Source of the DNA: Quercus robur
Lineage: Eukaryota; Streptophyta; Magnoliopsida; Fagales; Fagaceae
DNA: 64,000 bases
Assembly (NCBI RefSeq): GCF_932294415.1
Contig: NC_065538.1
Coordinates: forward strand, 17,955,656 to 18,019,655
Direction: 5' to 3'
The notes beneath the pieces were generated by a model. That model had not been told where the DNA came from. It saw only the letters and a program-made list of their open reading frames with translations, and did not search any database. Position numbers and translations under genes: made by a program. Positions 24,971 through 57,923 of this stretch are shown here, piece by piece; position 1 is the stretch's first letter, and every line of letters begins with the position of its first letter.

Positions 24971-25063
24971 GATATGGAATTTAAATGTTTTGGTGGTTTG
25001 ACAAAGGACAGAAAGGGTATGGAAGAATCAGAAGGTGATGTGCTAATTGAATGAGAAATAATG

Positions 25064-30091: not shown

Positions 30092-30850
30092 TGTGGGGAC
30101 ACAATTTGGAGCCCAAACTCCTATCTTGTGAAGTCTTGGTCCAAAAAAGCCTAATATAATGAATTTTGTAGAGTATGGGTCAAAGAATTAGGTTTAGATA
30201 AGTTAAACAGAGGCTTGCATGGGATAAAGGAACACATGGACAAGAACAAAAGCCATTGTGTTGAAAGATCTCACGGTCTGAGGAGACTAAAAACTTAATT
30301 TGTGTATACAGACCAGTACATTAGGGTTCGTTTGCATGCTACAGTATTCTCCCTTCTTCTTTTTTTTTTTTTTTCTTTTTTTTTTTTGTCCCTTATGGGG
30401 GCTTCTATACATTATATAGGCCCTTCCTTATCATTGGGCTTTACACTTGTTGATCATCCAAGCCTCCACTTGAGCACATATCCCATCAGACACCTCTTTC
30501 AGTCCTTTGTGAGTTGTGATAGCTAAGGTAACGCTGTTCAAGGGTCTTTTCCACATTAATGCGACCAGGAAAGTAGTTGTAGTGCATTCAATGTGGTGGT
30601 GGCAGCTTTTACTTAGATATTTTGTGTTTCTTTCCTTTTCACGTATTTAGGGGATGTGCTTCAGTGGCTTGGACATACCTCCGCTCCGAATTTTCAGTGT
30701 TCGAGGAGGAATTCCTCCTCGGACCTTTTTTCTTTGTTTCCCATGATAAGGCTTAACGTGGATCTCGTAAGCCACGTTGCCTCCTTAGACAGGCTGCGTC
30801 CTCGAACGAGCCCAAGGCCCAACTCGTTACTTTGGGCCATAGTCTCCACA
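30092..30850 (-). mobile_element. 3' LTR of a truncated Tat-type Ty3-gypsy element
   Basis: On the minus strand it starts TGTGGAGACTATGG at 30850, directly after a purine-rich GTTTTGAGGGGC tract, and ends GTGTCCCCACA at 30092. This mirrors the 3' LTR border at 46178. The element is inserted into block A copy 1. Its internal part continues to about 33845 but gag-pol and the 5' LTR are missing. Confidence 0.8.
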
Positions 30851-31362: not shown

Positions 31363-33845
31363 ATGGGTAGATTCAAGTGTCTAGTAGATACTCCGGCCGC
31401 CATGGAGGCCTTTAGGGAAAAGTACCGCATCCCGCAGGGGGTGATTTTGGAGTATTGTCCTTCAGAACGAGTGCTGATCGATAGGGAAGTGGGTCCAGTT
31501 GTCATTCCCATGATCGCTTTTATAGAGGGAGGAATGACGCTTCCCATGCGTAGGATTACCCGGGACTATTTGCTTAACCATAGATTGACAACGCATCAGT
31601 GCACTCCCAACCTGTTTGGGGTCTTAGGCAGCATAGATGTTCTGAACAAACGGATGGGTTTAAGTCTTACATGGCATGATGTAGTTCACATGTACGAGTG
31701 CCACCATCTTGACAAAGAGGGGTACTATCTTAAATCTCGATTCGAGATCATTAGGTTGATCTCTTGTCTTCCTAAATCCAATAAGAGTATGAAGGATGAC
31801 TTCCTTATTGCCTCGGGAGAGTGGAGCGATGGTCTTCATTGTCCAACTTGGGCAGGAGATCCAGGTACGGTGCCTTTAGGATCAATCCCCTGGGAAGGGG
31901 GTTTAACCCTTTAGTTTTATTTTCCTTTGATTGAAGATTCAAAATTTTTGTAACTTAACTACAATTTCCTTCTCGGCTGTTTTGCAGATAGAGCACACGT
32001 CACTCCTTGGTTGAGCCACGTAAACGTTCAAGCCCTGAACTATCTTTTGAGGTCAGAGATCTACGTTAACGAGGACAGACAATTACGTGCGGCCCATCTG
32101 ATTTTGGGTTACGAACCCTTGTCCCGCGCTTTCCTAGACGTCGGCCAATCCATAAGAGCCGGTAGTCCAAGGTTGGCCAGGATCGACTTGTCGAAGCCGA
32201 GGTTTTTGGCTTGAGAAGATCTTAGGCCAGTTGTTTTGCCTGGCATTCAAAATCCTCAGCCAGCTACACAACCACTTCCACAAGATAATCCTGAAGTTGC
32301 AGCGCGTGTTGAAGAAGAGACTGAATCATCCCGTCTTTCTCTTGAGGAGGAGATAGATGAGTTCTACTTTGAGGAGGATATTCCAAAAGCTCCACTGATC
32401 GAGCTTTCAGACGTTGAGGGAGAATAGGATAGAAACTCTGTGATCGACACCCCTCTTATTATTGCCTGCTCGGACGACTCTTCAGATGAGGAAGTGGACA
32501 ACATGGCCTCCAACAAAGGAAAAAGTTTGCGAGAGCTGATGGCTGCCCGAGGTAAGGGGCAATCATCGAAGGTGCCTGCCAAGTCCCAAACCTCTGTTCT
32601 TCCTCCTACTGCTCCGTAAATCCCTGCCGATCTCGGCTTGAAAGTTAATCCCGACCTAAAGAAGAAAAGGCCGATTGAGTCCCTCGAGGAAGGCGAGGTG
32701 GGTCCTCGCCAGGGCAGTAAATAACAAAAAACGACTCGGGAACATCGGGACAAAAGGGCTCCATCTGTGGAGAGCCGAGAAGAGATGGAACGGGCTGAAG
32801 TGTGCATGCCTCCGTGCACTTGGAGCCCCCAACTTGAAGTGGACGGAGCAGTCATTCCCTATAATGCTTCAATCCGAGAGTATAATAGGGGCTGAGCAGG
32901 GTACATTGCTGAAACCCTGGAGCAGCCCGTTCTCCTTCCCAGGGACATGGAGGCTTACAGGCGATTTTCACAGCCTGAACTCTTCCTATCCCTGAAGAGA
33001 GATCTTGCAATAATAAGACAATTCATCCTCTCATCGGTAAGATCATTGGATCATGTCATATTTTAACTTGTCATCTTGTCACTTCTTGGGCATATCACTC
33101 AACAAGTATTTGTGGCCGAGGAGTGGTGCCACGACAATCGTAAGTTAGCTGATGTCGAAGCCCTCTCTCGTGCTGAGGTGGAGAAGGCTGTAGGAGCCCT
33201 TAAGCAGGAGCATTACGAGCTATCTAAGAAGCTCAAGGAGGCTGAGTTAGGCTGTAAGAGTGTTGTGGCTGGCTTAAAGACTGCTGAAAAACAAGCTAAA
33301 GATCAACGCTAAAAACTGTACGTGACTGAGACCAACCTTGCTACTGAAAAGCAAGTCGTATTGGATCTTAAAGCCTCGTTGCAGAAAGCCAAAGAAGAGG
33401 CCCAGCTTGCCAAGGAAGAAGCTCAGCTAGTTAAGGAAGCAGCTAAGGTCGAAAAAAGGGTTGCTTACCAGCTTGGAGCGAAGGGGATTGAGGCAAGGCT
33501 TTCTGAGGAGCTACTAGAGGTATGCAAGGATTACTGCAGTATTTCATGGGTTCAGGCTCTTAATGCTGCAGGGGTCCCTGCAGACTCTGCCTTGAGATTG
33601 CCCGAGAATGTCTTCTTCCCTCCAGAGATCCGGGAGATCCTTGCCGATACCACTGAAGCTTCCGAGTAGCCCACGGTTGTTCCTAATGCCATCCCCTTAG
33701 TTGAAATTACCGGGAGCTCTGGTCAGGTCGCCGTTCAGGTTGAGGATGTGGAGAAAGAGAAGGGTAAAGGCAAGGGTAAGGGAAAGAAAACCTCCTTCAG
33801 GGCCAAGGATCTCACTAAGGAAGCAAGCACTGAGGCACTGAAGCA
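31363..33845 (+). pseudogene. Antisense three-exon gene of the truncated Tat element
   Basis: It lies antisense to its element. Exon 1, 31363-31864, encodes a domain resembling PF04195 (putative gypsy-type transposon): GPVVIPMIAFIEGGMTLP, HQCTPNLFGVLG, LTWHDVVHMYECH, RLISCLPKS. A phase-1 intron leads to exon 2 at 31988-33036, acidic and low complexity, then LLPRDMEAYRRFSQPELFLS. Exon 3 from 33094 is a Lys/Glu/Ala coiled coil, then LPENVFFPPEIREIL. Exon 2 carries several in-frame stops (32212, 32425, 32617 and later) but its frame is maintained throughout. The exon 3 acceptor is AT rather than AG, and exon 3 has stops at 33310 and 33667. Gene structure matches the antisense gene at 43227-45691. 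Function unknown. Confidence 0.75.
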
Positions 33846-35409
33846 TTCACTCACATTTCAGTTCTCATATCTTATATCTTATATCCTATTTCTTTATTTT
33901 TTCTTAACTCACTTTCTATCGTGTTTGGCATCAAAACTTGGCTTAGTTGTCAGTTTAAAAAAGCAACTTTAACTCAAAATTTATTTAATTGAATGATGAT
34001 GTTAAAAATATTACATAAAATTTATAATTTCATGTGTCATTTTTATAACACCCAAAACCAAAAGAAATAATTAAAAATATATATTATTATATGTTATAAA
34101 CGGGATACAATTAATTGTATTACAAATTTTTATAATACAATTAATTATCATTTTTTTATATTATTGAATAACTCTGGCCCTCCATTTGTTGTTGTCTTTT
34201 TTTTTTTTGTGGATCAAAAAGCAAAGAGTTATGAGGTACGTCTTTCAATCTGAAGAGGGAAAAAAGAAAGATCAGAAAGAAAAAGACGAGGCCCAGCCAG
34301 AATCACTGGGCCCCTTCACAGCTCCATTGTCTCAACATTTTGAACGTGCTGGATTGACGTGCACTGTAGTGTAGTGTAGTATGTGACCCATAAAAAAGGA
34401 AAACAATTGTGCCGACAAAAGTAAAGGCTATGATTCTTGAATGAGTTATCTTTTCTTCCTCATCCAATCACAAACGACATTAAGCTACAAAGAATACAAG
34501 ACAATAAGACCTTGTTTGGTTCACCATTCACTTGCATTTCAGTTCTCATATCTTATATTCTGATTCTCTATTTTCTCTTAACTCACTTTCTATCGTGTTT
34601 GGCATCAGAACTTGACTTTAGTTGTCAATTTAAAAAAGCAACTTTAACTCAAAATTGTGGAGACTCACACTTAAGTGTGTGTTTGTTTCCACTTTCTTAA
34701 GCCAAAACGCGCTATGTGAAACTGAAATTTTAAAATAAGCGTTTGGTAACATATGTATGGTAGCATTTGGAAGAAGTTATGTTTTGAAATCCAAAGGATT
34801 GTGCGTTTCCTTGACCCTGGCCAGCCCCAACTTTTGCAAAAGCCACACTGCGTTTTAACATTACCGTTGGAAAGCCACCGTCTATTTCCCAACTTGCCTA
34901 CTGTGTTTTCTTAAAAACTCAATTTTACTCTTTGATAAATCAAGGTAGTTCGCCATCTGCAGTCCCATCCCAGAACCTTTTGATGAATTAATTGCTACAA
35001 AGACCACAAAAAAATAGCATCTGGCCAGGTTTAATTCAATAACAAATTTCCAAATCCAAACACACAAAAATTTATAACAAATTCCCAAATCAACTAAGGG
35101 GAAAGAAAAAAAAATCAATCCCTTGCAAATCAAGATTCCTCAAAATGCAAAACAAAAAAACATTGGAATATAGTGAAATCTTCCCTTATGCAGTATCTCC
35201 CTTTCGTCTGCTCTGCTCCAATTCAATCTTCAGTCAATGACCAGCAACCACCTCTCTCTCTTTATTGTTCTTTTTTATTTTTATTTTTTGGGTTTATCAA
35301 GATCTCTCTATTTTTCATTTTGATCTTTCTCACTCTCTCCCCTTTGATGAAGTAATAATTTAGAGGATGGTAAGATGCCACGAAGTGTACCACAGTTCCA
35401 AATTGTACT

Positions 35410-35446
<37 letters not shown>

Positions 35447-35825
35447 AAATTTGTGGTTCACAGCTTGCGGTTTTTAATGTTCTACTATTTTATGTCCTTT
35501 TTTTCAGAAAATATTTTGTCATATTTAAATTTAATAAAAGTAGTTTCCACTTTCCACTTTGATCGTTTGTTTATTTGAAAATGGTTTAAAATAATTAGTA
35601 TTTTTTTTTTCTTTTAGTATTTAATGAAGGAAATCATTCACAATTCATGCATATCATTCCATTGCTAATTCTATTTGGGGATAATAATTAGTATTATTTT
35701 TTATAATATCATGTAGTACAATTCAAAGTTGGATATTGGTAAGTATTTTATCATCTTTTTACATTATCATTTTGTGCTCCATGATGATGAAAAATTTTGA
35801 GATTTAATTGATATTGATAAGAAGT
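33846..35825 (+). repeat. Segmental repeat block B, copy 1
   Basis: Aligns with 49668-50223, 50983-51024, 52104-53147 and 59501-59883. It lacks the two solo LTRs and the MULE found in copy 2, so it shows their empty sites. A sub-repeat (CTTAACTCACTTTCTATCGT) occurs at about 33903 and 34580. A TA microsatellite lies at about 35411-35443. Reading frames inside match no known protein. Confidence 0.85.
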
Positions 35826-36556
35826 TGTGGGGGTAAAATTTATAAGTCAACAGTGGGCCTTGGGCCACGCGCAGAGTCCAGCCATGACAAGAAGGGAAAA
35901 CGGGGCCAGAAGACTTCCAGCCCAATCCTGTTGGGCCGGACTTATTTAAGGGGCGTCCAAGGAGGAATGTCTCCTCGAACACACCAAATGGGAGTCCAAC
36001 GTACGCCCTGCACACAGTGAGGAACCATCCCAAGCAGAAGGAAAATGTTAGACGTCCAGGAGGCAACCACAACTGCCGCATTAAATGCAAAGAAGCTACT
36101 TTTTCAGCCGCATTAATGTAGAGAAGACAAGTGAATAGTGTTATCTTGGCCAGTGCAACTCACAGAAAGATAAGGTGGATGTCCTATGGGACAGACACTC
36201 AAGTGAAGGTCCAGATGGTTAACAAGTGTAAGACTCTTATCAATTTAAGGATGCTATATAGGAGAAGGAAATCCCCATGAAGAGGGGATCGGAAAATTGA
36301 GAGAAAAAAGAGTAAGAGAGATTTAAGAATCCTGTAAACAGAGCAAGAGTGGCACTCATATGTCTCCTCGGATCAATATCTCTTAAACATAAATGAAACA
36401 TTCTCGCGTTCGGACTGTTGCATGGCATACAACTGATTAAAGTTCACTTTGTCCAGTCCTAGTCCTGTAACCCACTCTCTACAAATTTATTGTCAAGGGT
36501 CTCTTGGGCCAGAACCGCTCACTTACTGGGCTTGGGCCCCAAAAACCGTCCCTACA
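35826..36556 (+). repeat. 5' LTR of the Tat element
   Basis: TGTGGGGGTAAAATTT to CCGTCCCTACA, 731 bp. TGCTATATAGG at about 36252-36262 is a plausible TATA box for element transcription. Confidence 0.93.
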
Positions 36557-36557
36557 A

Positions 36558-36576
36558 TTGGCGCCGTCTGTGGGAA
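36558..36576 (+). other. Primer-binding site of the Tat element
   Basis: TTGGCGCCGTCTGTGGGAA begins two bases after the LTR. The TGGCGCCGT part resembles the 3' end complement of tRNA-Asp; the rest diverges. Confidence 0.65.
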
Positions 36577-36609
36577 AGACTTGTGTCTCGACAAGTGAAA
36601 CTTTAAGAG

Positions 36610-37929
36610 ATGGAAGGATCAGGTTCGCGCCAGATTGGACATGCAGACTCCCAACGACAAGGCAATTTTTTGAACCTCGAACGAGAGAAAGACCAAGACA
36701 GGCAACGAGAGGGTAGTGTGAACACCTCTCACACAAGTAGAAACCGATCGAAAGGGAAAGGCCATGCATCCCATAAGCAAAATGATCGAAAGGCTCTCCA
36801 GCAGGAGATTGATGATTTGAAGAAGAAGCTGCGCCAAGCGCAGCGAAAACATCCTTCACCCGGCTCGGACACTAGTAGTGATGAGGATAACGAATACAGG
36901 CGGAGGTCAAGAACCCCTCTGAGCGAGACATTTTCCTACGAGGAAGAGCAGCCTCGCAAACGCGGCCATAAAAGCCCATCTTACCAAGGTCTAGCCAACG
37001 ATGCTATGAGCAAGGCCCTCGATTGCATCTCCCAGTCACCTTTCACGCGTAGGATAGAGAGGGCAGTATTGCCTCGGCGGTTCCATTAACCAGCGTTTGT
37101 CATATACAATGGTCGGACTGACCCAGTAGAGCATGTAAGCCAGTTTAATCAAAGGATGGCCGTCCACTCCAGGGATGAAGCGTTAATGTGTAAGGTGTTT
37201 CCGTCCAGCTTGGGACCTATGACGATGAGGTGGTTTGATGCCCTCCAGCCGAATTCCATAGATTCTTTTAAACAGCTGACACAGGCTTTTGGTTCCCGCT
37301 TCATCACCAGCAGTAGAGTCCCTCGGCCCTTAGATTCCTTCCTATCTTTGTCTATGCGGGAAGGAGAAACGCTGAAGGCCTACTCAGACAGGTACTGGGA
37401 AATGTATAATGAGATAGAGGGAAATTATGATGACGTCGCCATTAGCACGTTCAAAAGGGGCCTGTTGACAGAACATGGCTTAAGAAAGTCCCTCACTGGG
37501 AAGCCAGTCACCAGCGTGCGATAACTCATGGACAGAATTGACAAGTACAAAAGGGTTGAGGAGGACCAGCAGATGGGGAAGGGTAAAGCGAAGGTTGTCC
37601 CTCAGGAGATGAGGGATTTCAGGTCGGACCGCTTTAACAACAGGCTGAGAAGAAACTACGCGGAACAGTCCGGATCTATCGGGGCTCAGGCAGTCCATGC
37701 CGTGTTCTGAGAACCATTACACAAGATCCTAGAGAAGGTGAAGTGCGAACCTTTCTTTCAATGGCCGAACAGGATGGCAGGTGACCCCTCGAAACGCAAT
37801 CAAAATCTGTATTGCGCGTACCACCAAGAACCAGGTCACACCACCGATGATTGCAGGAATCTGAAAAACCATTTGGACCGGCTTGTCCGAGAAGGGAAGT
37901 TGAGGCATCTGTTACATCGCCCTGAATGA
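36610..37929 (+). pseudogene. Tat element gag
   Basis: A single frame beginning at ATG 36610, with stops at 37087, 37522, 37708 and 37927. Order: charged N-terminal region with a coiled coil (KALQQEIDDLKKKLRQAQRK), gag core (MTMRWFDALQPNSIDSF, REGETLKAYSDRYWEMYNEI), basic segment, then the zinc-knuckle-like CAYHQEPGHTTDDC. Stops at 37522 and 37708 fit CAA to TAA and CGA to TGA. Gag forms the particle that packages element RNA. Confidence 0.85.
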
Positions 37930-38628
37930 TGGCAGGAATAGTCAAACATTGAAACCAGACAAAGCACGTTGAGGCCACCCATTGGCACAATAAATGTCAT
38001 TCTTGCCGCACCTAGAAGGACCGGTTCCAGCCCTTTCAGAGTAATGTCAGTGGGAAGGTTCTCGACTGAGCTGGACGACAGGGAGTCCAAAAGAACCAGA
38101 ATGATTCCCACGCCCTTAATCGGGTTCTCGGAAGAGGACAAACAAGGAACCCTTCAACCCCACGATGACGCCCTATTCGTCACTCTCAGAATTGGAGGTT
38201 ATGACGTGAAAATGGTGTTAGTTGATCAAGGCAGCGCCGTGAAAGTAATGTACCCTGACTTGTGTAAAGGGTTGAACTTGAAGCCAAAAGACCTGTCGCC
38301 GTACGATTCCCCTCTGGTCAGCTTTGAAGGAAAAACAATCACCCCGAAAGGCATGATTAGGCTACCTGTGCAAACAGACTCAGACGTGGTAGAAGTGAAC
38401 TTCATTGTGGTAGATGCGTACTCCCCCTACACAGCTATCGTGGCCCGACCGTGGCTTCATGCACTAGGGGTTGTGCCATCAACCTTGCACCAAAAAGTGA
38501 AGTATCCGTCAGGAGGTCAAGTCAAAGAAATAATAGGGAACCAAGGAATGGCTAGGCAATGCATGGTGTCGGCAATCTCACGACGACAGAATAGTGAACC
38601 TTCCACTTCAGCCGAGAATAGCTTATAG
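37930..38628 (+). pseudogene. Tat element aspartic protease
   Basis: Same frame as gag. The catalytic motif reads LVDQGSAVKVMYPDL (Asp codon 38224-38226), the DQGS variant of the retropepsin DTGS/DSGS motif common in this lineage, followed by the FIVVDAYSPYTAIVARPWL flap/C-terminal region. It ends at TAG 38626-38628, probably from CAG. It would cleave the gag-pol polyprotein. Confidence 0.85.
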
Positions 38629-39562
38629 CAGTTAATGAACCCGGTCCCACCTGCGGGTTGTGGAGGACCAGCCAGGGAGGTGAGCTGTGAGGATCTGGAG
38701 AAAGTACTCGTCGGATCAGACCCTGAGAGGTTTTTCCAAGTCGGTTCAGAATTACCACCCCAGGAGATTTCTACACTGATTGATTTTCTCCGACAGAATG
38801 TAGACGTATTCGCCTGGGATCCCTATGAGGCTCCCGGGGTTGAGTTAGATTTCATCTGCCATCATCTTAATGTTAACCCGGCTATAACACCTAAGAAGCA
38901 GGCTCCTTGGCGACCGTCGAAAGAACATACCGACGCTGTGAGAGAAGAGGTCGTAAAATTGAAGAAAGCAGGGGCTATCAAAGAGGTCTTCTACCCTGAA
39001 TGGTTAGCCAACACAATCGTGGTGAGAAAGTGAAGTATCCGTCAGGAGGTCAAGTCAAAGAAATAATAGGGAACCAAGGAATGGCTAGGCAATGCATGGT
39101 GTCGGCAATCTCACGACGACAGAATAGTGAACCTTCCACTTCAGCCGAGAACAGCTTATAGCAATTATGAACTCGGTCCCACCTGCGGGTTGTGGAGGAC
39201 CAGCCAGGGAGGTGAGCTGTGAGGATCTGGAGAAAGTACTCGTCGAATCAGACCCTGAAAGGTTTTTCCAAGTCGATTCAGAATTACCACCCCAGGAGAA
39301 GTCTACACTGATTGATTTTCTCCGACAGAATGTAGACGTATTCGCCTGGGATCCCTATGAGGCCCCCGGGGTTGAGTCAGATTTCATCTGTCATCATCTT
39401 AATGTTAACCCGGCTATAACACCTAAGAAGTAGGCTCCTCGGCAACCGTCGAAAGAACATACCGACGCTGTGAGAGAAGAGGTCGTAAAGTTGAAGAAAG
39501 CAAGGGCTATCAAAGAGGTCTTCTACCCTGAATGGTTAGCCAACACGGTCGTGGTGAGAAAG
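38498..39562 (+). repeat. Tandem duplication of about 533 bp within pol
   Basis: 38498-39030 is repeated at 39031-39562. Both copies contain TGAAGTATCCGTCAGGAGGT, PPAGCGGPAREVSCEDLEKV and FAWDPYEAPGVE. The left copy breaks off at VVRK and the right one continues into RT. A 1-base deletion near 39165 in the right copy means downstream pol lies in a frame shifted by one. Confidence 0.9.
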
Positions 39563-40720
39563 AAGAACGGGAAATGGCGGGTCTGCGTGGACTTCACGGA
39601 CCTAAACAAGGCCTGCCCGAAGGATCCCTTCCCTATGCCACGGATAGACCGAATGGTAGATTCGACTGTCGGACACTCTCGAATGAGTTTTTTGGATGCC
39701 TTCCAGGGCTACCATCAGATACCCCTGGCTGCTGAAGACTAAGAAAAGACTGCTTTTGTCACCCCAGTCGGAAACTATCATTATAAGGTGATGCCCTTTG
39801 GCTTGAAGAATGCCGGGTCGACCTATCAAAGGATGATGACTAGGATGTTTGAACAACAGATGGGTAAGAGCGTTGAAGTGTATATAGAAGACATGGTGGT
39901 AAAAAGCAGGTTGGTGGCCGATCACATCAAAGACTTCGGTGACATTTTTCAAATTCTAAGAAAGTACAAGCTACGACTGAACGCGTCCAAATGTTCATTT
40001 GGGGTGGGATTAGGAAAATTCTTGGGTTATATGGTGACCCACAGGGGTATAGAAGTTAACCCTGACCAAATAAGAGCCATCCATAGCTTGCAGCCTCCTC
40101 GGAATCTAAAAGAGGTTCAGAAGCTCACCAGCATGATAGTTGCTTTAAACCGTTTCATCTCACACTCAGCAGACAGATGCAGGCCATTCTTCCTCCTATT
40201 ACACAAGTGGAAGGGTTTCGAGTGGACTGAGGAGTGTGCTTTAGCTTTCCAACAGCTCAAGGAATACCTCGCCCGACCACCAATTATGTCCAGTCCCGAT
40301 GCCGACGAGGTGTTGTTCTCCTACATCGCAGTAGCCTCTTATGCAGTGAGCTCAGTGCTAATCTGAGAGGACAACGGCACGCAACGACCAGTCTATTACG
40401 TGAGCAAATCATTGCAAGAGGCAGAAACCCGTTATCTCCCCCTCGAGAAGGCTATCTTGGCCATCGTACAGGCCACACGAAAGCTTCCCCACTACTTTCA
40501 AGCACACACTGTAGTTGTGCTAACTCAACTTCCCTTAAGGTCCGTCCTCCGCAGCGCCGATTACACAGGCAGAATTACAAAATGGGGAACGATTCTGGGC
40601 GCCTTCGACATTAAATACATGCCTCGCACTGTTGTAAAAGGCCAAGTCCTCGCCGATCTAGTAGCAGAATTTATGGAGCCCATGCTAGAAGGAAAGGAGG
40701 TGTCGGGATTACTCGGTACT
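38635..40720 (+). pseudogene. Tat element reverse transcriptase and RNase H
   Basis: RT landmarks in order: VCVDFTDLNKACPKDPFPMP, MSFLDAFQGYHQIPL, the MPFGLKNAGSTYQRMM motif, and VYIEDMVVKS where the catalytic YxDD box should be. The first Asp of that pair is Glu (codon 39887-39889). RNase H follows (GTQRPVYYVSKSLQEAETRY, LPLEKAILAIV). Stops at 39431, 39740 and 40364 fit CAG, CAA and CGA to stop. Because of the upstream duplication, the first 400 bp of the connection region are present twice. Reverse transcription by this copy is impossible. Confidence 0.9.
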
Positions 40721-40739
40721 GATGAGAAACTGATCAGCA

Positions 40740-41160
40740 CAATTTCCCAGCATGAGCACACTTGGTGGAAAGCACACATCGATGGTGCAGCGAACCAAAG
40801 AGGCTCAGGGGTAGGACTCGTTTTGCTTTCACCCGAAGGGATAACCATAGAAAAGTCGTTGAGGCTCGGATTCTCGGCCACAAATAATGAAGCCGAGTAT
40901 GAAGCGCTATTGGAGGGAATGTTAATGATCCGGAAAATGGGTGGAAAATCCGTGAACATGTTCTCGGATTCGAGACTGATCGTGGGATAAGTAAATGGAG
41001 ACTTGGAGGCCAAGGATGAAAGAATGCAAGAGTATTTGGTCCGGGTTAAGCACCTGCAGACCCATTTCCATCACTTCCGCTTGACATATGTACCCAGAAG
41101 TGGAAACACTCATGCTGATTCTCTCGTGACGCTGGCTACCTCCTTGGCTCAGCCCCTTCC
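40740..41160 (+). pseudogene. Second RNase H domain of the Tat element
   Basis: After RT-RNase H comes WKAHIDGAANQRGSGVGLVL (catalytic Asp), NNEAEYEALLEGM (Glu) and MFSDSRLIVG (Asp), then SGNTHADSLVTLATSL. This is a cellular plant-like RNase H module, the feature that assigns the element to the Tat clade. One TAA at 40988-40990, fitting CAA to TAA, interrupts it. Confidence 0.85.
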
Positions 41161-41179
41161 TCGAGTCATTTTGGTAGAA

Positions 41180-42487
41180 GACCTCTTCCGTCCAATAACG
41201 GAGAAGACCAATGGAATTCGGGTACATAGCATCAGGGCAGGGCCAAGCTGGATGGATCCTCTAGTGCTGTTCTTAAAGCACGACACCTTGCCAGACCATA
41301 AGGTTGAGGCCGACATAATCAGGAGAAAAGCTACTCGATTCTGGTTGTCCGAGGACCCAAAGCTTTACAGACGCTTGTTCTCAGGGCCGTACCTGCTGTG
41401 TGTGCACCCAGAGGCTACTGAACTCATCCTGGAGGAGTTACACGAAGGAATTTGTGGAAGTCATACGGGGGGTAGGTCCTTGTCCCACAAGGCCATAACG
41501 CTGGGTTACTGGTGGTCGAGTATGCATAAAGAAGCCCTGGAATATGTGAAGAAGTGCGACTAATGCCAAAGGTTCGCCCCAAACATACACCAGCCTGGTG
41601 GAGAGCTTAACCTGCTGTCCAGTCCCTGGCCATTCGCACAATGGGGTCTAGACATACTAGGGCCATTCCCCAAAGCTGCAGGGAACAAGAAATTTCTTCT
41701 TATCGGCACCGACTACTTCACGAAGTGGGTGAAAGTTGAGGCACTGGCAAACATTAGAGATGTCGATGTTAAGAAGTTTGTTTGGAAAAATATTGTCACT
41801 CGGTTTGGGACCCCACACGCCTTGATATCGGACAACGGGCTCCAGTTTGACAGCAAAGCCTTCAGAAGATACTGCAATGAGCTGGGAATTGTCAATCGGT
41901 ACTCCACACCGGCTTACCCACAGGGAAATGGACAAGCGGAAGCTATCAATAAAACCATAGTGAATGGGCTGAAAAAGAGGTTAGACGATGCGAAAGGAAG
42001 ATGGATTGATGAGTTAGCCCATGTCTTGTGGAGATACCGTACCACACCTCGTAGGTCCACGGGAGAAGCCCCATTTTCAATGACCTACGGAGCCGAGGCT
42101 GTCATTCCACTAGAGGTAAACTTCCCAACACAGAGGACTACTGCCTTCTGCCCCGTTGCTAATGACAAACTTCTGGAAAAAAGCCTGGACCTCATCGACG
42201 AAAGAAGGGAAAGTGCAATGGTCCACCTAGCTTACTAACAGCAAAAGCTCAAACAGGGCTACGACGCCAAGGTGAAGTCAAGACCATTGGCACCAGGGGA
42301 TCTAGTACTGAGGAGGGTCCTGGGCATCGCAAGGAACCCTGCATAGGGAAAACTCGGACCAAACTGGGAAGGCCCATACTGTATCACTTCCGTAGCCGGC
42401 ATAGGAGCCTACTTTTTGAAAGATTTGGATGAACATGTAGTGCCACGCCCTTGGAATGTAAACAACCTAAAAAGGTACTGTTATTAA
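41180..42487 (+). pseudogene. Tat element integrase
   Basis: An HHCC zinc-binding region (ELHEGICGSHTGG, then the CDxCQR pair with TAA 41561-41563 between), followed by the DDE core: WGLDILGPFP, ALISDNGLQFDSKAF and GNGQAEAINKTIVNG. Then WRYRTTPRRSTGEAPFSMTY and a C-terminal [10 protein letters not shown] segment. Stops at 42236 and 42344 also interrupt. The natural end is TAA 42485-42487. It would insert the DNA copy into the genome. Confidence 0.9.
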
Positions 42488-42537
42488 TGAAAGATATAAT
42501 TCTTGATGTCGTATTACTATGCAGCTACTTGGTCTAG

Positions 42538-43023
42538 GTGTTAAACAGAACCCAAGTCCTGCCTGGCTCCTCAAACTACAGACTTGGGGGAAATTAACCA
42601 CGAAGCTATTTTCACTAGGTGTTAAACAGAACCCAAGTCCTGCCTGGCTCCTCGGGCCACAAACTTGGGGGAAATTAACCACGAACCTATTTTTACTAAG
42701 TGTTAAACAGAACCCAAGTCCTGCCTGGCTCCTCGGACCACAGACTTGGGGGAAATTAACCACGAAACTATTTTCAGTAGGTGTTAAACAGAACCCAAGT
42801 CCTGCCTGGCTCCTCGGACCACAGACTTGGGGGAAATTAACCACGAAACTATTTTCACTAGGTGTTAAACAGAACCCAAGTCCTGCCTGGCTCCTCGGAC
42901 CACAGACTTGGGGAAAATTAACCTCGCAGCTATTTGCTCTACGTGTTAAACAGAACCCAAGTCCTAGATGGCTCCTCGGACCACAGACTTGGGTGAAATT
43001 AACCTCGCAGCTATTTTGTCTAA
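42538..43023 (+). repeat. 81-bp minisatellite, six copies, in the Tat 3' region
   Basis: GTGTTAAACAGAACCC recurs at 42538, 42619, 42700, 42781, 42862 and 42943, an exact 81-bp period (27 codons), so a frame stays open through the array on both strands. The unit includes CCTGCCTGGCTCCTCGGACC and ACAGACTTGGGGGAAATTAA. Copies 3-5 are most alike. It starts 50 bp after the pol stop, where Tat-lineage elements are known to carry variable tandem repeats. Confidence 0.95.
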
Positions 43024-43226
43024 TTATCGACTACCATTTTTTCACATATTCATTCGCTTATGCTTGGTTTTCAACAGTTAAACATCCATTCATGACGAAA
43101 ATAGAAGAGAAAGTAAAACAACGAGATTTAAAGGAAAACAACTCTTCTCATTAAAATCCAAAAGCGGTCCTTTTTACAAACATTAACAAAACAAAAGATG
43201 AAGAGTAAAACAAAAAAAATCCTACA

Positions 43227-45691
43227 CTACTTTCCTAAGTCTGAACCCTGAGTAGGAATTGGCTGATCGTCAGCTGCCTGGGGTCCCGAAACAGTCTCTT
43301 TAGCCTTTGCAACAATCTCACTGATGGAAAGGCTGTCCTCGGGCAACTTGTCCTGTGCGGTCGGCTGTGCATCCCCAGCTTCAGGCACGGAGGAGTCCGA
43401 GGCCAAGGCCTTCGTTGGGAGAGGCTCTTCGGGGGCAACCTCGTCGGGGATCTCACGTATATCCTTCGGAAAAAAGATATTCTCAGCCTTCCGGAGATCG
43501 GAGTCCGCTGGGACTGCTGCCCAATCCAAGGCTACACCCCCAGACATGGTGATGTAATCCCTGCAAACGGCGGCCACCTCTTCGGTCAGCCTGATCTCAG
43601 TATCATGGACTCCACGATCATATGAGGCCGCCACTGCCTTCTTAGCCGCCTCCCTAGCCAAACGGGCCTCCTCCTTGACTTTCTCCAGCTCGGCCCTGAG
43701 AGCTGAAACCGCCTGCTTCTCTGTCGCGAGCTTTTCCTCAGACTGGCGGAGCTGTATGCGCAGATCATAAGCCTGCTTAGTTGCGTTTTTGAGGCCGGCA
43801 TCCGCGCTCGCAAGACTCCTTTTCGCCTCCTTTACTTCATTGCTCAGGCGATCCTTGTCCTACCTGAGATCGCCAGCAATCTTCTCGGCAGCACAGCGGG
43901 ACTGAGCCTCACTGTGTAGGTCCTCACGAGCCTTCTTGGCGTATTCCTCAGCAACGTAGATTTGTTGAGTAACCTGCGCCCGGAAAGTAAAGGCCTAATT
44001 AAAAGATGATGATGAATAAATAGATACGTAAATAAGAGAACAAGATAGAATTTTTCACTTACCATAGCCATGTCCCTCTTTAGCGACATGAAGAGGTCTG
44101 GTTGCCGAGTACTCCGGAGACCCTCCATATCGCGAGGTAAAAGAAGAGGCTGCTGCAGGGCCTTAGCCAAGAATGACGCCTGCCCTCGTTGGGATTCCCA
44201 CAGGGTCGCATCCCAGGAAATTGGGGCGCCGTCTAATTCGAGTCGTGGCGACTATGTCCGCTGTTCCCTCCGAATAGCCGCCTCGTCTCGGCTATCGACG
44301 GACCTAGTCCTTTTCTCCCTGGGCTCTTTAGTCTCCTTGCCTTTCTTCTGGGGCTTGGCCTTGTCATGGCCAACCTCGCCCTCCTCCAGTTCCTCCACAG
44401 GCCTTTGTCGCCTCAAATTTGGCATAGGCTGTAGTGCCGCATCCGATGTGGGAGGAAGAGGAGGAGCAGGAGCCTTAGAAGCAGGTTGTTCCTTAGGGAC
44501 ATCCTTGGAGGATTGCCCTTCGTTCCTGCATGATAGGAGGCCCCTAAGACTAGACCTTGGTTTCAAATCCATTCCTTCTTCCTCGGTCTCTTGGCTGGTG
44601 TCGACTTGTACAATTACCAAACCAAGATCAGGGGCTGCCAAGGCGCGGTCTAAATCTGTGTCGGAGTCCGAGAGCTCTACCAGCCTGGCCGACTCCTCTC
44701 CTTCCTCGGCAAACTGGAACTGGTCCATCTGATCCTCCAAGGACGATTGCGAGGAATCAGCCTCCTCCTCAGGGACAACTGCTGCGGGAGGGGCACTCTG
44801 AGCAGGCAGCTGGATAGGAGGTAAGTCTCTCGAGACAAGAAATCCTATTATGGAGATGTCAATGCGTGCTAATCTTGGACTACCAGCCCTGATAGCTTGA
44901 TCGGCGTCCACCAAGGATCGCGAAAGGGGAACGTAGTCCAAAATCAAAGGAGCGGCCTGTAATTGTCCGTCCTCGCTCACGAAAATCTCAGATCTCAGGA
45001 GGTAATTTAGAGCCGGGACGTTGACCAAGCTCAGCCGAGGAGACGTTCGCTCCTTATCTACAAAGCCCATAGAAAGGGTTACGTTAGTCCGAGGAGGCAA
45101 GTGAACCAAACCCAAAAAAAAAAAAAAAAGGGGGGGGGGGGAAGCTCAAAACTAAGGTCCCCTCCACGGAATCTAATTCTACGATGCCCCACCTAGCGTT
45201 CCTACCTTGGTCGGACAATGAATACCGTCGTGCCATGGTCCGGAGACGATCAAAAGGTCGTCCTTCAAGCCTTTACTGGACTTGGGAAGGCAGGATATCA
45301 ACCTCACCTCGTCGGACCTGGACTTTAAGTAATATGAGTCGCCGAGCTTATGGCATTCATATAGATGAACCACATCGTGCCATGAAAGGCCGAGGTTCAT
45401 CTGATCATTCAGGACGTCTGTGCATCCCAGGATCCGGAATAGGTTCGCGGTGCACTGGTGAGGGGCCAACCTATGACCACGCAGGTAGTCCCTAGTTATT
45501 CTCCCCATTGGAATCGTCATTCCTCCTTCCACGAAGGCTATCATTGGAATGGCGACCTGCCCTGTCCTTCTCTTGAACAAAATTTCCTCCTGATGGCAAT
45601 ACTCTAAACCTATCTTCGGTGAAATACGATACTTCGCCCTGAAGCCTGCCATATTGGCCGGAGAGTCTACCATTTTTTCAAGTTTACCCAT
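43227..45691 (-). pseudogene. Antisense three-exon gene of the Tat element (PF04195-like)
   Basis: Lies between pol and the 3' LTR, opposite to gag-pol. Exons 45691-45193, 45057-44063 and 43973-43227 join in frame with GT/AG borders (746 residues). Exon 1: GQVAIPMIAFVEGGMTIP, HQCTANLFRILG, LSWHDVVHLYECH and RLISCLPKS, resembling PF04195. Exon 2: ALNYLLRSEIFV, an acidic Ser-rich linker and a basic segment, ending PRDMEGLRSTRQPDLFMS. Exon 3: a long Lys/Glu/Ala coiled coil, then KAENIFFPKDIREIP. Only two stops interrupt it: TAG 44254-44252 and TAG 43862-43860. This is far fewer than in gag-pol. Such antisense genes occur in some plant Tat elements; their role is unknown. A promoter would lie near 45700-45900, just inside the 3' LTR. 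Confidence 0.85.
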
Positions 45692-46162
45692 CCCCTCTAA
45701 TCCTAGACAACGCGAAGACGGTTTACTTAAGGAAGAGTAACGAAGAAGAAATGCGCACTTACGGGTGAGAAACTTGACGGAATCTTCAAGAGAACTGCTG
45801 CGAAGGCGTGGGCGTGTTGAAGGAGAAGGTGCTGAAATGCTTTGAGTACTTGAGTGTTCGTCAAAAAGTGGGGAATGAATGCCTTCAAAATCTTATATAC
45901 TCAGGGGAAGTTGGACAGACATACTCCCGCCTAGAGAAAAGAAAATAATATCAATCGTTGATCTGGTCCCCAACCGTCAGATCAAAAGAGCGTAAAACGC
46001 CAAACGCAGCAATTAACTCCCCCCGAGTCATTAAATGCCTTCAGCATTAATGAGGCACGTGGGAGCACATCCCCGCATGGGTGAAGTGGGAATCCCCAAT
46101 AAATGATCCTGTGGGTATCAAAATCCCGCCTTTCCTCCTCGGACAAAAGAGAAAGAGTCGGA

Positions 46163-46177
46163 ATTTTGAGGGGCAAT
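46163..46177 (+). other. Polypurine tract of the Tat element
   Basis: A G/A-rich tract with TTTTGAGGGGCAAT abuts the 3' LTR start, and the truncated relative has TTTTGAGGGGCTAT in the same place. Confidence 0.65.
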
Positions 46178-46908
46178 TGTGGGGGTAAAATTTACAAGTC
46201 AATAGTGGGCCTTGGGCTCCGTGCGGAGTCCAGCCATGACAAGAAGGGAAAACGGGGCCAGAAGACTTCCAGCCCAATCCTGTTGGGCTGGACTTATTTA
46301 AGGGGCGTCCGAGGAGGAATGTCTCCTCGGACACACCAAATGGGAGTCCAACGTACGCCTTGCACACAGTGAGGAACCATCCCAAGCAGAAGGAAAATGT
46401 TAGACGTCCAGGAGGCAACCACAACTGCCGCATTAAATGCAAGGAAGCTACTTTTCCAACCGCATTAATGTAGAGAAGACAGGTGAATAGTGTTATCTTG
46501 GCCAGTGCAACTCACAGAAAGATAAGGTGGATGTCCGATGGGACAGGCACTCAAGTGAAAGTCCAGATGGTTAACAAGTGTAAGGCCCTTATCAATTTAA
46601 GTATGCTATATAGGAGAAGGAAATCTCCATGAAGAGGGGATCGAAAAATTGAGAGAAAAAAGAGTAAGAGAGATTCAAGAATCCTGTAAACAGAGCAAGA
46701 GAGGCACTCATATGTCTCCTCGGATCAGTATCTCTTAAACATAAATGAAACATTCTCGCGTTCGGACTGTTGCATGGCATACAACTGATTAAAGTTCACT
46801 TCGTCCAGCCCTAGTCCTGTAACCCACTCTCTACAAATTCATTGTCAAGGGTCTCTTGGGCCAGAACCGCTCACTTACTGGGCCTGGGCCCCAAAAACCG
46901 TCCCTACA
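46178..46908 (+). repeat. 3' LTR of the Tat element
   Basis: 731 bp, the partner of 35826-36556, with about 30 differences by eye. Confidence 0.93.
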
Positions 46909-46913
46909 GAAGT

Positions 46914-48304: not shown

Positions 48305-49071
48305 TGTGGGGCCCAAGAGTCTATGGGCCCGGCTTGCTCGCTTATAGGGAGTCCACAGGTCCCCAAACTAAAGGAGGCCAGGGCCCAAGCTCAAAAACAG
48401 TGAGCCCGATGTGGTTCAAGGGCACGTCCGAGGACCGCTCCGTCCTCGGAAAGCCCAGAACCCCATTAACGAAAATGGGATGCAGGCAGACTTGAAAGAT
48501 CAGAAAATATCTCACGGAAATAGTCCTTAATACCCTTCACTGACATGACACCGCCCCAAACAGATCCGGATTTTTAGGCTTTATGGACCATCTCCCACAA
48601 TTCAGGGATTAGACTGATGGGACAGATATCTACCCTGGAAAGATCGACCCTACACGTGGACGAAGGACAACGAACGTAGGCTAGTATAAAAGAGAATGTT
48701 ATGTGACCAAGAAAAGGGGGAGGGATCAGGCCTCCATCTAGCTTCTGGAGAAAGGCTTGAAGAAAGAGAATGTCTGGATAATACACGCCGGACACCACGT
48801 AAAAACCCCTCGACGGGTAACCGGGGGCAGCGCCAACGCTCCTCGGACATGATCCGAGGAGCCAAATCCTCCTAGATACAGGATTGATGGGCCTGAATAT
48901 CCAGCCCAAAGCTCTATCTCATATCAGTTCACCTGTAGTCCGACTCGAAATGTCGCCTCGTGCCCCAACGCTGGCCTTTCAAGCCCACTCTCTACAAATA
49001 TTATTGTGAGGGACTTTCCGTGTGCGAGCCCAACGTCGATGTCGGGCCGTTAGAGATTTTGTGTCCCTACA
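48305..49071. mobile_element. Solo LTR, 767 bp, TSD AATAA
   Basis: TGTGGGGCCC to GTGTCCCTACA, flanked by AATAA at 48300-48304 and 49072-49076. The empty site with a single AATAA is in block A copy 1 near 29860. CTCTCTACAAATATTATTGT resembles a segment of the complete Tat LTR, so it is probably a related Tat family. It contains no internal region, so it is the product of LTR-LTR recombination. Confidence 0.88.
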
Positions 49072-53006: not shown

Positions 53007-53147
53007 GGGTTTATTGAGATCTCTCTATTTTTCATTTTGATCTTTCTCACTCTCCCCTTTGATGAAGTAATAGTTTAGAGGATGGTATGATGCCACGAAG
53101 TGTACCACAGTTCCAAATTGTACTTATTATTATTATTATATTTTAAT

Positions 53148-53892
53148 GGGAAAAATGCTCATACACCCCTTAAACTTTTAACTACTGGCCAAAAGACCCC
53201 CTTAACTTTTTTATTGGCCAATTTACTCCTTAAACTATTCACAACTGCCAAATTAATACTTCAGTTAGTCACACGTTAAAACACTAACGGAATAAACACA
53301 TGCCACTCACGTGGCTTTTAAATACAAACTGAAAAAATCCCAAACATCCAAAACCCAACGGAAGAGAAGAGAACCAGTCCAGGTCCGGCAGAGAGAGAGA
53401 GAGAGAGAGAGAGAGACTGCACGCCATTCAGCCACTGCCAAGCTTCTCTCTGCCGTCTCGCCGCCCTTGTCCCGGCGGCTCCTTGGTGGTTCCGCCGCAC
53501 TGTTCAATCTGGGTATGTCTTTTTTTTTTTTCTTCTTCTTCTTCTTACGTCTTGCTATTTAAATCTTCTAAGAACTTTTATTTTTTTTTAATCTCCATGT
53601 GCGAATTTTTATTGTAGAAATTCTTGTTTTGGTTTAATTTCTGGGTTGGGTCTCTATGAAATTCTTGGTTTTTTACTTTCTCCATGTGCCTTTCACCAAC
53701 TGTTGCGTTTGAGTATGCCATAGAGCTGTTTGATTAAATGCCTGAGAGAGATATGGCTACTTCTAAGGGGGTTTGGTTGCTTGGTTATCCAATTTTCCAA
53801 ATATGCTGGCCTTCCAAGTTTCCCTTGCAACCCATTTGCTACAAAAAAATATCAAACACAATAATTGGTTCTGTAATGATCCAGAAGCCAAT
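53148..53892 (+). repeat. Left TIR of the MULE
   Basis: About 745 bp, the inverted partner of 58754-59500. Includes a GA microsatellite at about 53391-53415 and a GC-rich stretch at 53440-53510. Confidence 0.92.
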
Positions 53893-54597
53893 TATTGTAT
53901 TTGGAATCAAGCACCTCCTTACTTGAGTTAACCTTGGGTCTGTACTTCCACATAAAGGTTGTCACAGATGCTTAATATCTTATTTCTGCTTAGGTTACTT
54001 AGGCCATTAAGTTCTGTATAATTGGATAGGCATAAGCAAAGAATGTAAATTTATATGTTCTTGAAAGATGTTTCATATAGACTCAGTCCAGTGTTTTGGT
54101 AGCAATTTTGTGCACATCATTTTATTTAAGGCCAGGCCTCCTTTATTAGATCATCTTTTGGTCAACAATCTTTTGGACTATGCAGCTGCTACTTGGTTTC
54201 CTTTGTGCGTGCCTGTATGTGTTACATGTTTTCATTAAGAATGTAGCAAATGATGGCTATAATTATGGATTTGTCTGCTATTACTTAAGCAAATCATGTT
54301 GATAATGGTGCTAGACATTTTAACCTTTTAATCTATAACCTTATCTATAACCTTTTAATCAATTATGTTTAGTATATTGCCAATATAATGGTGCTAGACA
54401 TTTGTCCCATGTGTGATAATAGTTTATCAATTTGATGATTCTACTAACTTATTTGGAATCGAGGCCTTGTTACTAACCTAATTGGAATCAAGACTACTAA
54501 AAGCTTGTCTGTTTATATAGCACTTCAATTATTATTTCTTAATTTTCTCCTTCTTCATGTAGAAATCAACCCTAAATATTTCCCTTATTTGTTTCAG

Positions 54598-54730
54598 CAA
54601 ATCAGAGAATGTAATTTACAAGCTCAAAGAGATGGGAAAGATTGGGGAGAAAGATATATTGCTGACCTGCGATTACTTCAGTAAGCTTGATCGCAACAAC
54701 TTTGGGAAGATAACACTACCAGATCTTTAG
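54598..54730 (+). pseudogene. Captured terminal exon resembling a two-pore K+ channel (TPK/KCO) C-terminus
   Basis: After a TTGTTTCAG acceptor, the phase-2 frame reads VIYKLKEMGKIGEKDI, then a C-terminal EF-hand-like FSKLDRNNFGKITLPDL and a stop. This matches my recollection of the C-terminal calcium-binding region of plant tandem-pore potassium channels, whose last exon encodes it. No pore or membrane exons are present. It lies inside the MULE, opposite in orientation to the transposase. The preceding AT-rich DNA (53893-54597) may be captured intron, and the DNA after it the 3' UTR. The TAG directly after DLx may itself be a truncation. Confidence 0.65.
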
Positions 54731-55437
54731 GAACCTTATGACTGCAAGAAATATGAAATCTGTTTCTATTCTTTAGATGGAAGAAATGTATAGTTACATT
54801 TTTTTTTCTTCTTCCATTGATACTTGTAAAGGTTTCAAGTCATATAGGAGCAATGAAAAATAGAAGCCAATGGGATATGTCCCCCTTCTGTTATAGGTTC
54901 TCTTACAGCCATTAAATTGAGAGGCTGCTATGGAGGGTTTGAGTTGTATGATGTAGATTTGACGCTGTAATAATTCAAGTAGTCAACAAGGAAAGTAAAC
55001 AATCTTGGGATGATCTTACTTCTTCTCTTTATTTTGATTCAAGTTGTATGAGTGATTTGGTTGATGCGTACTTCTTCTCTTTATGCAATAACCACCAAAA
55101 ATGAATGTGTCCCAATCTGCCATGAATTGAACTTTATGCAATAACTCTAAGAAAATAAATCAATAATTACACTTTTCCAGCAATATTGAAAAACAAAAGT
55201 ATACTGGCTCCATCAGTATTCTTAAAAGGATCTCAATATGCCATGAATTGAAATATCAAATAAGTGTTTACAAATGGTATATTGTTTGCCAAAAAAATAA
55301 CACTCAATGAATCAATAATTACACTTTCCAAGCAATATTGAAAAACAAAAGTATACTGGCTCCATTAGTATTTTTAGAAGGCTGTGTATCACTAAACAAA
55401 TTATTGAACTAAAAAATTATTTATCTTCTTGCTGCCA

Positions 55438-57923
55438 CTAAACCTTAGCCTTTCCCTTATCCTTGCTTCCACTAGTGTTGTCCTTTGTATGACTTTGACT
55501 GGACTGTTGAGTACCTATATTTGATTGCTGAGTACCCTATAAAGAGCCAAAAAAGTTGGAAAAGTTTAACAAAGTAGTACTTGAAATTTGGATGAAAAGT
55601 TCAACAAAGTAGTACTTGAAATTTACCAATAATTTTTTACTCCCTTTAGCTCCAGATGTAGATGATTGTCCTAATTGCCCTTTCTTTTTCTTTTTATAAG
55701 CCTTCTTGTTGGGGTTATCAGGAGCTTTACAAGTTCTTTGATTATGGCCCCACTGGAAACAATTCCCACATTTCATGGCAGTTCCTTTCTTGCTCACCCT
55801 AAATGCATTAATAGGTTCTCTTGCCTCCCTCTTTCTTACCTTCTTACGCTTGCCTACTTTCTTTGTAAATTTTGGGGGCTTGATTCGGTCATAGGGTGTC
55901 TTTGGCCACTGTTCATGGCTTGGAAGTGGGCTTACCATCCATTGGTAACAACTTAGGAATGTCTCCTTAGTGTAAGCAATGTCTACATAAGTCTCAAGTT
56001 GCTCTCCATGCTCAATTATTGCAGCAGCAGCATGAAAACAATGGATTCCACTCAATCCCCATCTCCCACAACCACAAGTCCTCTCATTCAAGTCCACCAC
56101 ATATCTTCCACCATAAATATACTCCACCTCATATTTGGACTCTCCATTCCAACGAGAAATGCAATGTCCAACCTCGCTTTTTATCCTCTCAAGCTTCTTA
56201 TAGATTCTTGGACAAACCCTCCCTTCATACCTTCTCATATGATCTCTTTTGGTTTGCAACCTTTGCATCAACATCACTCTTATGATCTCCATCATTGTCA
56301 ACACTGGTTTATCCCTAGCCTCCAAAATCCAAGCATTGAAAGACTCTGCTATATTGTTTACTAGAGTGTCACTCTTGCTTCTTGGATTAAAAGCATGTCT
56401 GCTCCATGTTCTCACATCTAACTTCACAAGCCACTCATATGCCTTCACATCTAGCTTCTTCAACTCATCCATGTGGAAGTCAAAAGAATTCTTTGTTGTT
56501 GCCCTAGCAGCACTCCACATTGCATCTTTGAGTACCTTCCCAGGAAAATCCTTCTTGAAATTTGCATATAAATGCCTAACACAAAATCTGTGCTCTGCAT
56601 TAGGCATCAAATCTTTAAAGGTCTCTACTAATCCCTGCCATAAAAAATACGCAAATATACATTAGTAATTCAAATTCAGGTTATAGATCATGATATTTTT
56701 AAAAAATAAATAAATAATTCACATGCACATTAATTGTTTCTTACCTTCTGTCAGTCTGAGATAAAGACCCATCCATTCTCATCCACATGTCCAATGTCAT
56801 CCAACAAGCATTGTAGAAACCAGGTCCAAGAGCTTTTATTCTCAATTTCAACGATAGCAAAAGCGATTGGGAAGATATTATCATTCCCATCCTTTCCAAT
56901 AGCAACCAGCAACTGTCCACCTGTTGTCCCCTTCAAATGACAACCATCTATCCCAATAAGTGGCCTACAACCTGCTAAAAATCCCCTTTTGCAAGCATCA
57001 AGACAAATATACATTCTCTCAAACACATCATTCGCAGTTTGTATCTTCACTGTGCTACCCACATTCCACTTCCTAATAGCAGCTGCATAGTCCCAAAGTC
57101 TCTCATACTGCTTCTCCTCAGCACCATGTATCATCTTGAATGCCATTCTCTTAGCCTTATAACATTGGTCCAAAGTCACATCAACTTCATGGCCCCTAAA
57201 CACTGCACCCTTCAATGCATTTGCTATCCAAGTATGATCATCTCTAAAGAATGGCAAATATTTATTGGCTAGCCACCTTGAAGAAATCTTACTATTCTTA
57301 TGATCCTTGCCACACGTATGAATGCTTTTAAAACTTTTGATTTGAAAGGCATCTCCCATTTGTGTTTGGGATGCATGTATCTTCCAACCACATTTTTTTT
57401 TACATACAGCTATCACTCTCCACTTATCATTGTGCTTATACTCAAAATCATGTTTTTCTTTAATACACCACTCCTTTAGTGCCTCCTTGAAGATGACATG
57501 TGATGCAAATTTTTGATCCTTCACTAGCTGTACATTCTCCATGCCAATGCGCTGGTTAAACTCAGGGAACCTAGGCCTTGAATTCCCTTCATCATCAGAT
57601 GACCCTTCTGCACTCCTTAACTCATCACTATCCCCATGATCTGAATCTCCTTCACCATTCCAAACTCCCTCAAGCTGCTTGCCTCCAATTGCTCTATTGA
57701 TTCCATCATCCTCCATACCAAAATCTTCAATTATATCATCATCAGATTCAGAAAAATCACGCAAATTGTAATCTTCGTCATCCTCGTCATCCTCCACATC
57801 AATTGGAACATTAACAATTTCAGATTGGCCATCAGCCTCAATAGAATCATATTGGGATTGAGGGGCTTGTACATTTGGCATAGAAGGTGAATTTCCAGGG
57901 AGTGATAGTGGGCATTCATCCAT
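55438..57923 (-). pseudogene. MULE transposase (MURA-like), three exons with one nonsense codon
   Basis: Exons 57923-56745, 56634-55627 and 55536-55438, all phase 0 (761 residues), with introns of 110 and 90 bp. Order: acidic N-terminus, MuDR DNA-binding region (ALKEWCIKEKHDFEYKHNDK, CGWKIHAS), DDE core with PLIGIDGCHLKGTTGGQLL, WTWFLQCLLDD, GWVFISD, then LMPNAEHRFCVRHLYANFKK. The SWIM zinc finger is CGCGRWGLSGIHCFHA; a CCHC knuckle CGNCFQWGHNQRTC and a Gln/Ser-rich tail follow. Immediately after FISD the codon is TGA (56753-56751) where the family has Arg, fitting CGA to TGA. Otherwise clean, so recent loss of function is likely. Confidence 0.9.

Follow-up and report, generated by a model that had tools for sequence, protein, structure and literature searches.

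A 64,000-nucleotide stretch of the Quercus robur genome (the window) contains a retrotransposon, element A, that carries a three-exon gene antisense to gag-pol. We put at about 0.95 the probability that this gene is an accessory one, carried antisense by a Tat (Ty3/gypsy) element of Retand type, and that it was under selection. The gene class itself is already known, as antisense TRP28/PF04195 ORFs of Retand. Comparison with a truncated relative in the same window, element B, supports the view that purifying selection preserved the antisense protein while the lineages were mobile. Regulation of the element appears to be the likeliest role of the gene.

Structure of the element and of its antisense gene

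Element A (35826-46908) is a complete Tat-clade Ty3/gypsy retrotransposon with an internal part of 9.6 kb. It is bounded by the TSD GAAGT (35821-35825 and 46909-46913), and its LTRs end in TG...CA. The 5' and 3' LTRs differ at 29 of 731 positions (K2P 0.041). In a Pfam scan of eight gag-pol pieces, five gave matches (PF03732 gag, RVT_1, RT_RNaseH, RVT_3, Integrase_H2C2, and rve), and these six families are ordered gag, RT, RH, aRH, then integrase, which is the Tat-clade order. The pieces 37942-38625 and 38629-39030 matched no Pfam family at E<=0.01, and a protease was not found in the scan of the eight pieces. Two features that characterize the Tat clade and its Retand lineage are present: the aRH precedes integrase in the Pfam scan, and a long region with an antisense ORF separates pol from the 3' LTR. 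This region, which holds the tandem units and the antisense gene, extends from the end of the last pol ORF at 42238 to 46177. Its length of 3.9 kb falls within the 2.9-6.6 kb of the 2025 survey. Within pol, a tandem duplication of ~530 bp (38494-39466, copies 96-99% identical) breaks the frame.

The antisense gene of element A has 746 codons and two in-frame stops (Table 1). The initial annotation proposed a three-exon spliced gene antisense to gag-pol, and this model is right in A, where both introns are GT-AG. As read from the sequence, retention of intron 1 would add an in-frame stop in both A and B, and retention of intron 2 would shift the frame in A (89 nt) and add a stop in B. T is more frequent in the coding introns (0.38-0.44) than in the exons (0.19-0.28).

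Element B lies in the opposite orientation (30092 to about 33849) and retains the 3' LTR, leader, and antisense gene only. All three of its exons align with those of A without a frameshift, and they carry seven in-frame stops (0, 5, and 2 in exons 1, 2, and 3). When four exon pieces of A were compared with the window by tblastn, B was matched by exon 1 (E 3.7e-69), by the two ends of exon 2 (E 3.4e-24 and 1.5e-21), and by exon 3 (E 9.5e-32); among the matches listed, all besides B were at E 0.22 or worse. The claim that both elements share the same intron phases (1, then 0) holds for intron 1. It is weaker for intron 2 of B (33013-33093), which has neither GT nor AG and was placed by homology alone. 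The introns themselves are near-random in alignment: between A and B, intron 1 reaches just the identity of the best among 100 shuffles, and intron 2 is barely over the best shuffle (0.66 vs 0.64). The first 135 nt of exon 1 (0.68) and of exon 2 (0.72) beat all shuffles (0.65).

Table 1. Coordinates of features of elements A and B and of solo LTR C in the window
Feature	Position	Strand	Remarks
Element A, 5' LTR	35826..36556	+	731 bp; decayed U3 dyad 35956-35979, two mismatches
Element A, gag-pol, broken	36607..42238	+	gag, RT, RH, second RNase H (aRH), and integrase in separate pieces
Element A, six 81-bp tandem units	42534..43017	+	CTCCTCGGAC intact in four units; one unit has a single mismatch and one has lost the word
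Element A, exon 3	43227..43973	-	predicted coiled coil; internal stop 43862-43860, terminal stop 43227-43229
Element A, intron 2	43974..44062	-	GT-AG, phase 0
Element A, exon 2	44063..45057	-	ends conserved, acidic linker divergent and bearing basic clusters; one stop, 44254-44252
Element A, intron 1	45058..45192	-	GT-AG, phase 1; half-site at 45087
Element A, exon 1	45193..45691	-	TRP28-like domain, no stop
Element A, candidate 5'-UTR intron	45703..45762	-	60 nt, GTAAGT...CTAG; homologous donor context in B; prediction
Element A, candidate TATA box TATATAAG	45892..45899	-	208 nt before ATG; common to B at 31107-31114
Element A, half-site CTCCTCGGAC in antisense leader	46135..46144	+	between polypurine tract and TATA box
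Element A, 3' LTR	46178..46908	+	perfect U3 dyad TCCGAGGA-N8-TCCTCGGA at 46308-46331
Element B, 3' LTR	30092..30850	-	U3 dyad 30700-30723, one mismatch
Element B, antisense gene	31363..33849	+	exons 31363-31864, 31988-33012, 33094-33849; 7 stops; truncated near 33849
Element B, intron 1	31865-31987	+	GT-AG, phase 1; place homologous to A
Solo LTR C, third family	48305..49071	+	TSD AATAA; perfect U3 dyad 48427-48450; second, outward pair 48840-48860

The core of exon 1 of A resembles PF04195 at 12.4 bits (E 0.19), and B does so at 16.1 bits (E 0.014). Both scores are below the Pfam cut-off of 26.2 bits, and the domain is therefore called TRP28-like only; what had been described as a PF04195-like N-terminal domain keeps a weak, sub-threshold likeness. 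The full exon 1 of A matched no Pfam family at E<=10. For exon 1, no relative of solved structure was found at E<=10, and a search of viral contigs for relatives gave six pattern matches, none of them confirmed. The proposed C-terminal coiled coil is supported by heptad contrast, as only 2 of 300 shuffles reach the value of A and 12 of 300 that of B. A SUMO-interaction motif, which in exon 2 fits the strict pattern in A but not in B, was dropped.

Elsewhere in the window, a MULE-like element (53145-59504) has terminal inverted repeats of ~750 bp with 96.8% identity and contains two minus-strand ORFs (55537-57938), which we take to resemble a MuDR-type transposase. Minus-strand ORFs in two overlapping frames at 23407-25027 presumably resemble an aromatic amino acid decarboxylase. 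An array of five diverged repeats, ~770-1050 bp apart and with strong G skew, occupies 12628-17113.

Stop codons and constraint on the protein

The LTR divergence of element A predicts 1.23 stops in the antisense gene, and two are found (P 0.35); thus the gene was probably intact when the element inserted. Nine gag-pol pieces have 9 stops vs 2.93 expected from LTR age (P 0.003), a count that leaves out 37525-37941 with 3 more stops in 139 codons. The last of the nine stops may be the natural end of pol, in which case 8 remain (P 0.010). The gag-pol excess (36607-42238) could perhaps mean that the element was defective before moving, or that decay is fast in methylated DNA. The initial annotation described the two stops over 746 codons as far fewer than in gag-pol. 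The count stands, but the comparison does not: 2/746 codons vs 9/1605 gives a Fisher p of 0.52, as does 8/1605, and relative to the LTR-age expectation no significant difference separates the gene from gag-pol (binomial 0.32). Fewer stops than gag-pol was dropped as a signal of selection on the ground of the Fisher test.

The evidence for selection comes from the codons that A and B share. Protein identity is 62% in exon 1, 50% in exon 2, and 38% in exon 3. Synonymous sites are saturated (pS 0.80, 0.79, and 0.79 in exons 1-3; overall 0.795), and pN is 0.23, 0.34, and 0.42, so that constraint judged by pN decreases from exon 1 to exon 3. By NG86, the full sets give an infinite dS, and of 500 bootstraps no more than 80, 48, 38, and 4 yield a finite value; therefore, pS/pN and a codon ML fit were used instead. 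The comparison used 728 of 737 aligned codon pairs, leaving out gap columns and 9 pairs with a stop. Pairwise omega is 0.16, 0.04, and 0.10 for exons 1-3 and 0.09 pooled, an estimate from two sequences with saturated synonymous sites (fitted t 2.3-9.1), and omega = 1 is rejected in every exon (2dlnL 63.5, 141.3, and 61.9). The five remaining reading frames, taken from these alignments as controls, give 0.83-2.11, with the exception of the wobble-sharing reverse frame (0.18-0.33). The alignments were built in the gene's own frame, which barely affects exon 1, with its single one-codon gap.

Because omega is low and the control frames are higher, it is reasoned that the protein was selected while the lineages were mobile. 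The earlier claim that the gene was kept by selection is supported by this constraint, and dN/dS is not near 1 in any exon. The frame-specific constraint and the tblastn E-values also rule out a chance ORF.

Two other readings bear on these results. One holds that the antisense RNA is the functional part, pairing with genomic RNA and feeding or blocking silencing, with the protein secondary. A 2020 review names this possibility (PMC7264820), but frame-specific constraint with saturated synonymous sites requires a protein, and we regard the RNA reading as improbable. The other takes the gene for a passenger or relic that was captured a single time from the host or from a DNA transposon and whose coding signal is left from an earlier life. 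The introns suggest capture at the DNA level and both copies are broken today, which also rules out domestication of copies A and B (2 and 7 stops). Nevertheless, a mere passenger is very improbable, given the constraint between two diverged retrotransposon copies, the fit of the two stops of A to the number expected since insertion, and the finding of the 2025 survey that antisense TRP28 ORFs are missing from just two of 63 recently active Retand clusters (PMC11963269).

Candidate promoter, U3 dyad and half-sites

The antisense gene has a candidate TATA promoter of its own just inside the 3' LTR. The TATATAAG box lies 208 nt (A) and 256 nt (B) before the start codon, between the polypurine tract and the gene, and ACTCAAGT is found 44 nt (A) and 47 nt (B) after the start of the box. 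A candidate 5'-UTR intron of 60 nt in A and 72 nt in B begins with GTAAGT, with TCTTCGTTAC 15-16 nt past its start, and ends at a CTAG a little before the start codon in both elements. Its A-B alignment is no better than shuffles (under the best of 100).

A 24-bp dyad, TCCGAGGA-N8-TCCTCGGA, occupies the same U3 position in the LTRs of three diverged families, those of A, B, and the solo LTR C. The window was scanned for both arms in either orientation, with a spacer of 0-24 and at most two mismatches in total. Of the seven pairs found, four are inward with a spacer of 8, one in each of four LTRs (two mismatches in the 5' LTR of A, none in its 3' LTR, one in B, and none in C), at offsets from the LTR start of 131 and 131 in A, 128 in B, and 123 in C. 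In 300 base shuffles each of the A 3', B, and C LTRs, the best score was three mismatches. The LTRs of A, B, and C have three 9-mers in common vs a null mean of 0.02 (maximum 1 of 200); two are the dyad word, and the remaining one, CTCTACAAA, lies close to the end of the LTR. In the ten-base arms the innermost pair is G/C in A and C/G in C, with the symmetry preserved. Apart from this, the alignment of solo LTR C to A covers 24 bp only, and C does not align to the LTR of B; therefore, the dyad is viewed as a footprint. The LTRs of A and B are partly alignable and partly homologous, so their shared site may be inherited for another reason, e.g. a host factor.

Non-redundant element A holds four copies of the half-site CTCCTCGGAC, counting the two dyad arms, vs 0.03 expected (maximum 1 in 30 dinucleotide shuffles). 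If one mismatch is allowed, the count is 9 vs 0.57 expected (maximum 3). CCGAGGAG and TCCGAGGA come directly after poly-A in a ranking of the 8-mers of element A that counts a single LTR and a single repeat unit. The window holds 26 half-site matches with at most one mismatch, 17 in A, 6 in B, and 3 in C; these elements make up 15.6 of the 64 kb, are its GC-rich part, and are CG-rich like the word itself. As six of the 26 lie in coding sequence, the word is not limited to non-coding DNA. The first 81-bp tandem unit has lost the half-site, and a half-site with one mismatch lies at 31338, in the candidate 5'-UTR intron of B.

That the dyad is the target of the element's own antisense protein is a tentative and rather unlikely proposal, the main alternative being that a host factor binds it. 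The latter belongs to a broader reading in which the selected protein acts after transcription, in nuclear entry of the cDNA complex, in insertion-site choice, or as a coiled-coil part of the particle, and a host transcription factor binds the dyad. The coiled coil and the basic clusters would suit this as well, a link to nuclear entry of the complex is proposed in PMC7264820, and nothing links the dyad to the antisense protein. However, a promoter of its own and splicing on the antisense strand imply that the gene is expressed independently of gag-pol, and half-sites are present in the gene's own leader and intron. On balance we consider a post-transcriptional role possible but doubtful.

Proposed role and comparison with known systems

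Under the regulatory reading, the antisense gene would be transcribed and spliced independently of gag-pol. Its introns would survive reverse transcription because those of an antisense gene would not act as intron signals within the sense genomic RNA. Since the introns were retained through rounds of reverse transcription, the gene appears to travel as antisense DNA and not to be re-copied from its own mRNA. The protein would enter the nucleus by means of the basic clusters of exon 2 and dimerise via exon 3. Its TRP28-like N-terminal domain may bind element DNA, with the U3 dyad and the half-sites in the 81-bp repeats as first candidates, and the protein could then determine, from the two LTRs, whether the element is transcribed or silenced. 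Judged from sequence features, the protein would be a nuclear and probably dimeric regulator acting on element DNA. A nuclear regulatory role has about an even chance of being correct, and the odds are equally balanced for the reading of a gene, spliced and selected, with a protein that regulates the element irrespective of what it targets. The initial annotation called the role unsettled, in agreement with the 2020 review and the 2025 survey.

According to the survey passages, antisense TRP28 (Transposase_28, PF04195) ORFs mark Retand elements, and TRP28 is predicted to bind DNA, its role being called unknown (Vicient 2025, PMC11963269). In a 2019 survey of ORFs with 250 codons or more, 23% of Retand elements are reported to carry Transposase_28 (PMC6317226). 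The gene of element A resembles the ORFs of the 2025 survey in antisense orientation, position between pol and the 3' LTR, TRP28-like domain, tandem repeats beside pol, and size range. The survey's ORFs are predicted unspliced, whereas that of A is one three-exon gene; the word "intron" has no occurrence in the text of PMC11963269. Further differences are that A and B score under the Pfam cut-off and that the U3 dyad goes without mention in the survey passages. An intron-aware model matters because ORF-based surveys would split such a gene into separate antisense ORFs.

The antisense ORFs of Grande (gene23), RIRE2, and Silene Retand have the same position and orientation and are likened here by the description in PMC7264820. 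That review describes a nuclear protein and a promoter of its own for Grande gene23, and it urges the study of antisense and spliced transcripts. Neither introns of antisense Retand genes nor the dyad were found in the literature searched. As far as PMC11963269, PMC6317226, PMC7264820, PMC12786077, PMC11728184, and PMC5735166 go, the additions made here are the model with introns, the estimate of selection, and the dyad; the original Grande, RIRE2, and Silene Retand reports fall outside this scope and may describe introns.

With HBZ of HTLV-1, a comparison drawn in PMC11963269, the gene of A has in common that it lies antisense at a retroelement's 3' end; HBZ is also a nuclear regulator, the role proposed for A. 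In contrast, the gene of A has no bZIP match in Pfam scans (E<=1 and E<=10, excluding 44063-44251 and 43863-43973 of A), and its candidate TATA box lies between the polypurine tract and the gene, outside the LTR; homology is not claimed.

VANC of the VANDAL elements (PMC5735166) is similar in that an element protein is encoded beside a short motif repeated in the element's own non-coding DNA, its tandem repeats and introns included. VANDALs, however, are DNA transposons, and the gene of A has no DUF1985 or DUF287 match in Pfam scans of the same thresholds and extent. VANC also binds its clustered motif and lifts DNA methylation from the element; of these properties, A shows the clustering in its sequence. 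It is unlikely, in our estimate, that gene and dyad form one self-recognition system, in which a dimeric TRP28-like protein, expressed from a promoter next to the 3' LTR, would read the dyad in both U3s and the half-sites in the 81-bp repeats and switch transcription or silencing of the family. If true, such a system would be an analogue of VANC of independent origin in LTR retrotransposons, and it would explain why Retand elements retain both the antisense gene and the tandem repeats. Antisense TRP28 genes occur in almost every recently active Retand cluster covered by the 2025 survey. The dyad offers a concrete and cheap binding test of the protein's action.
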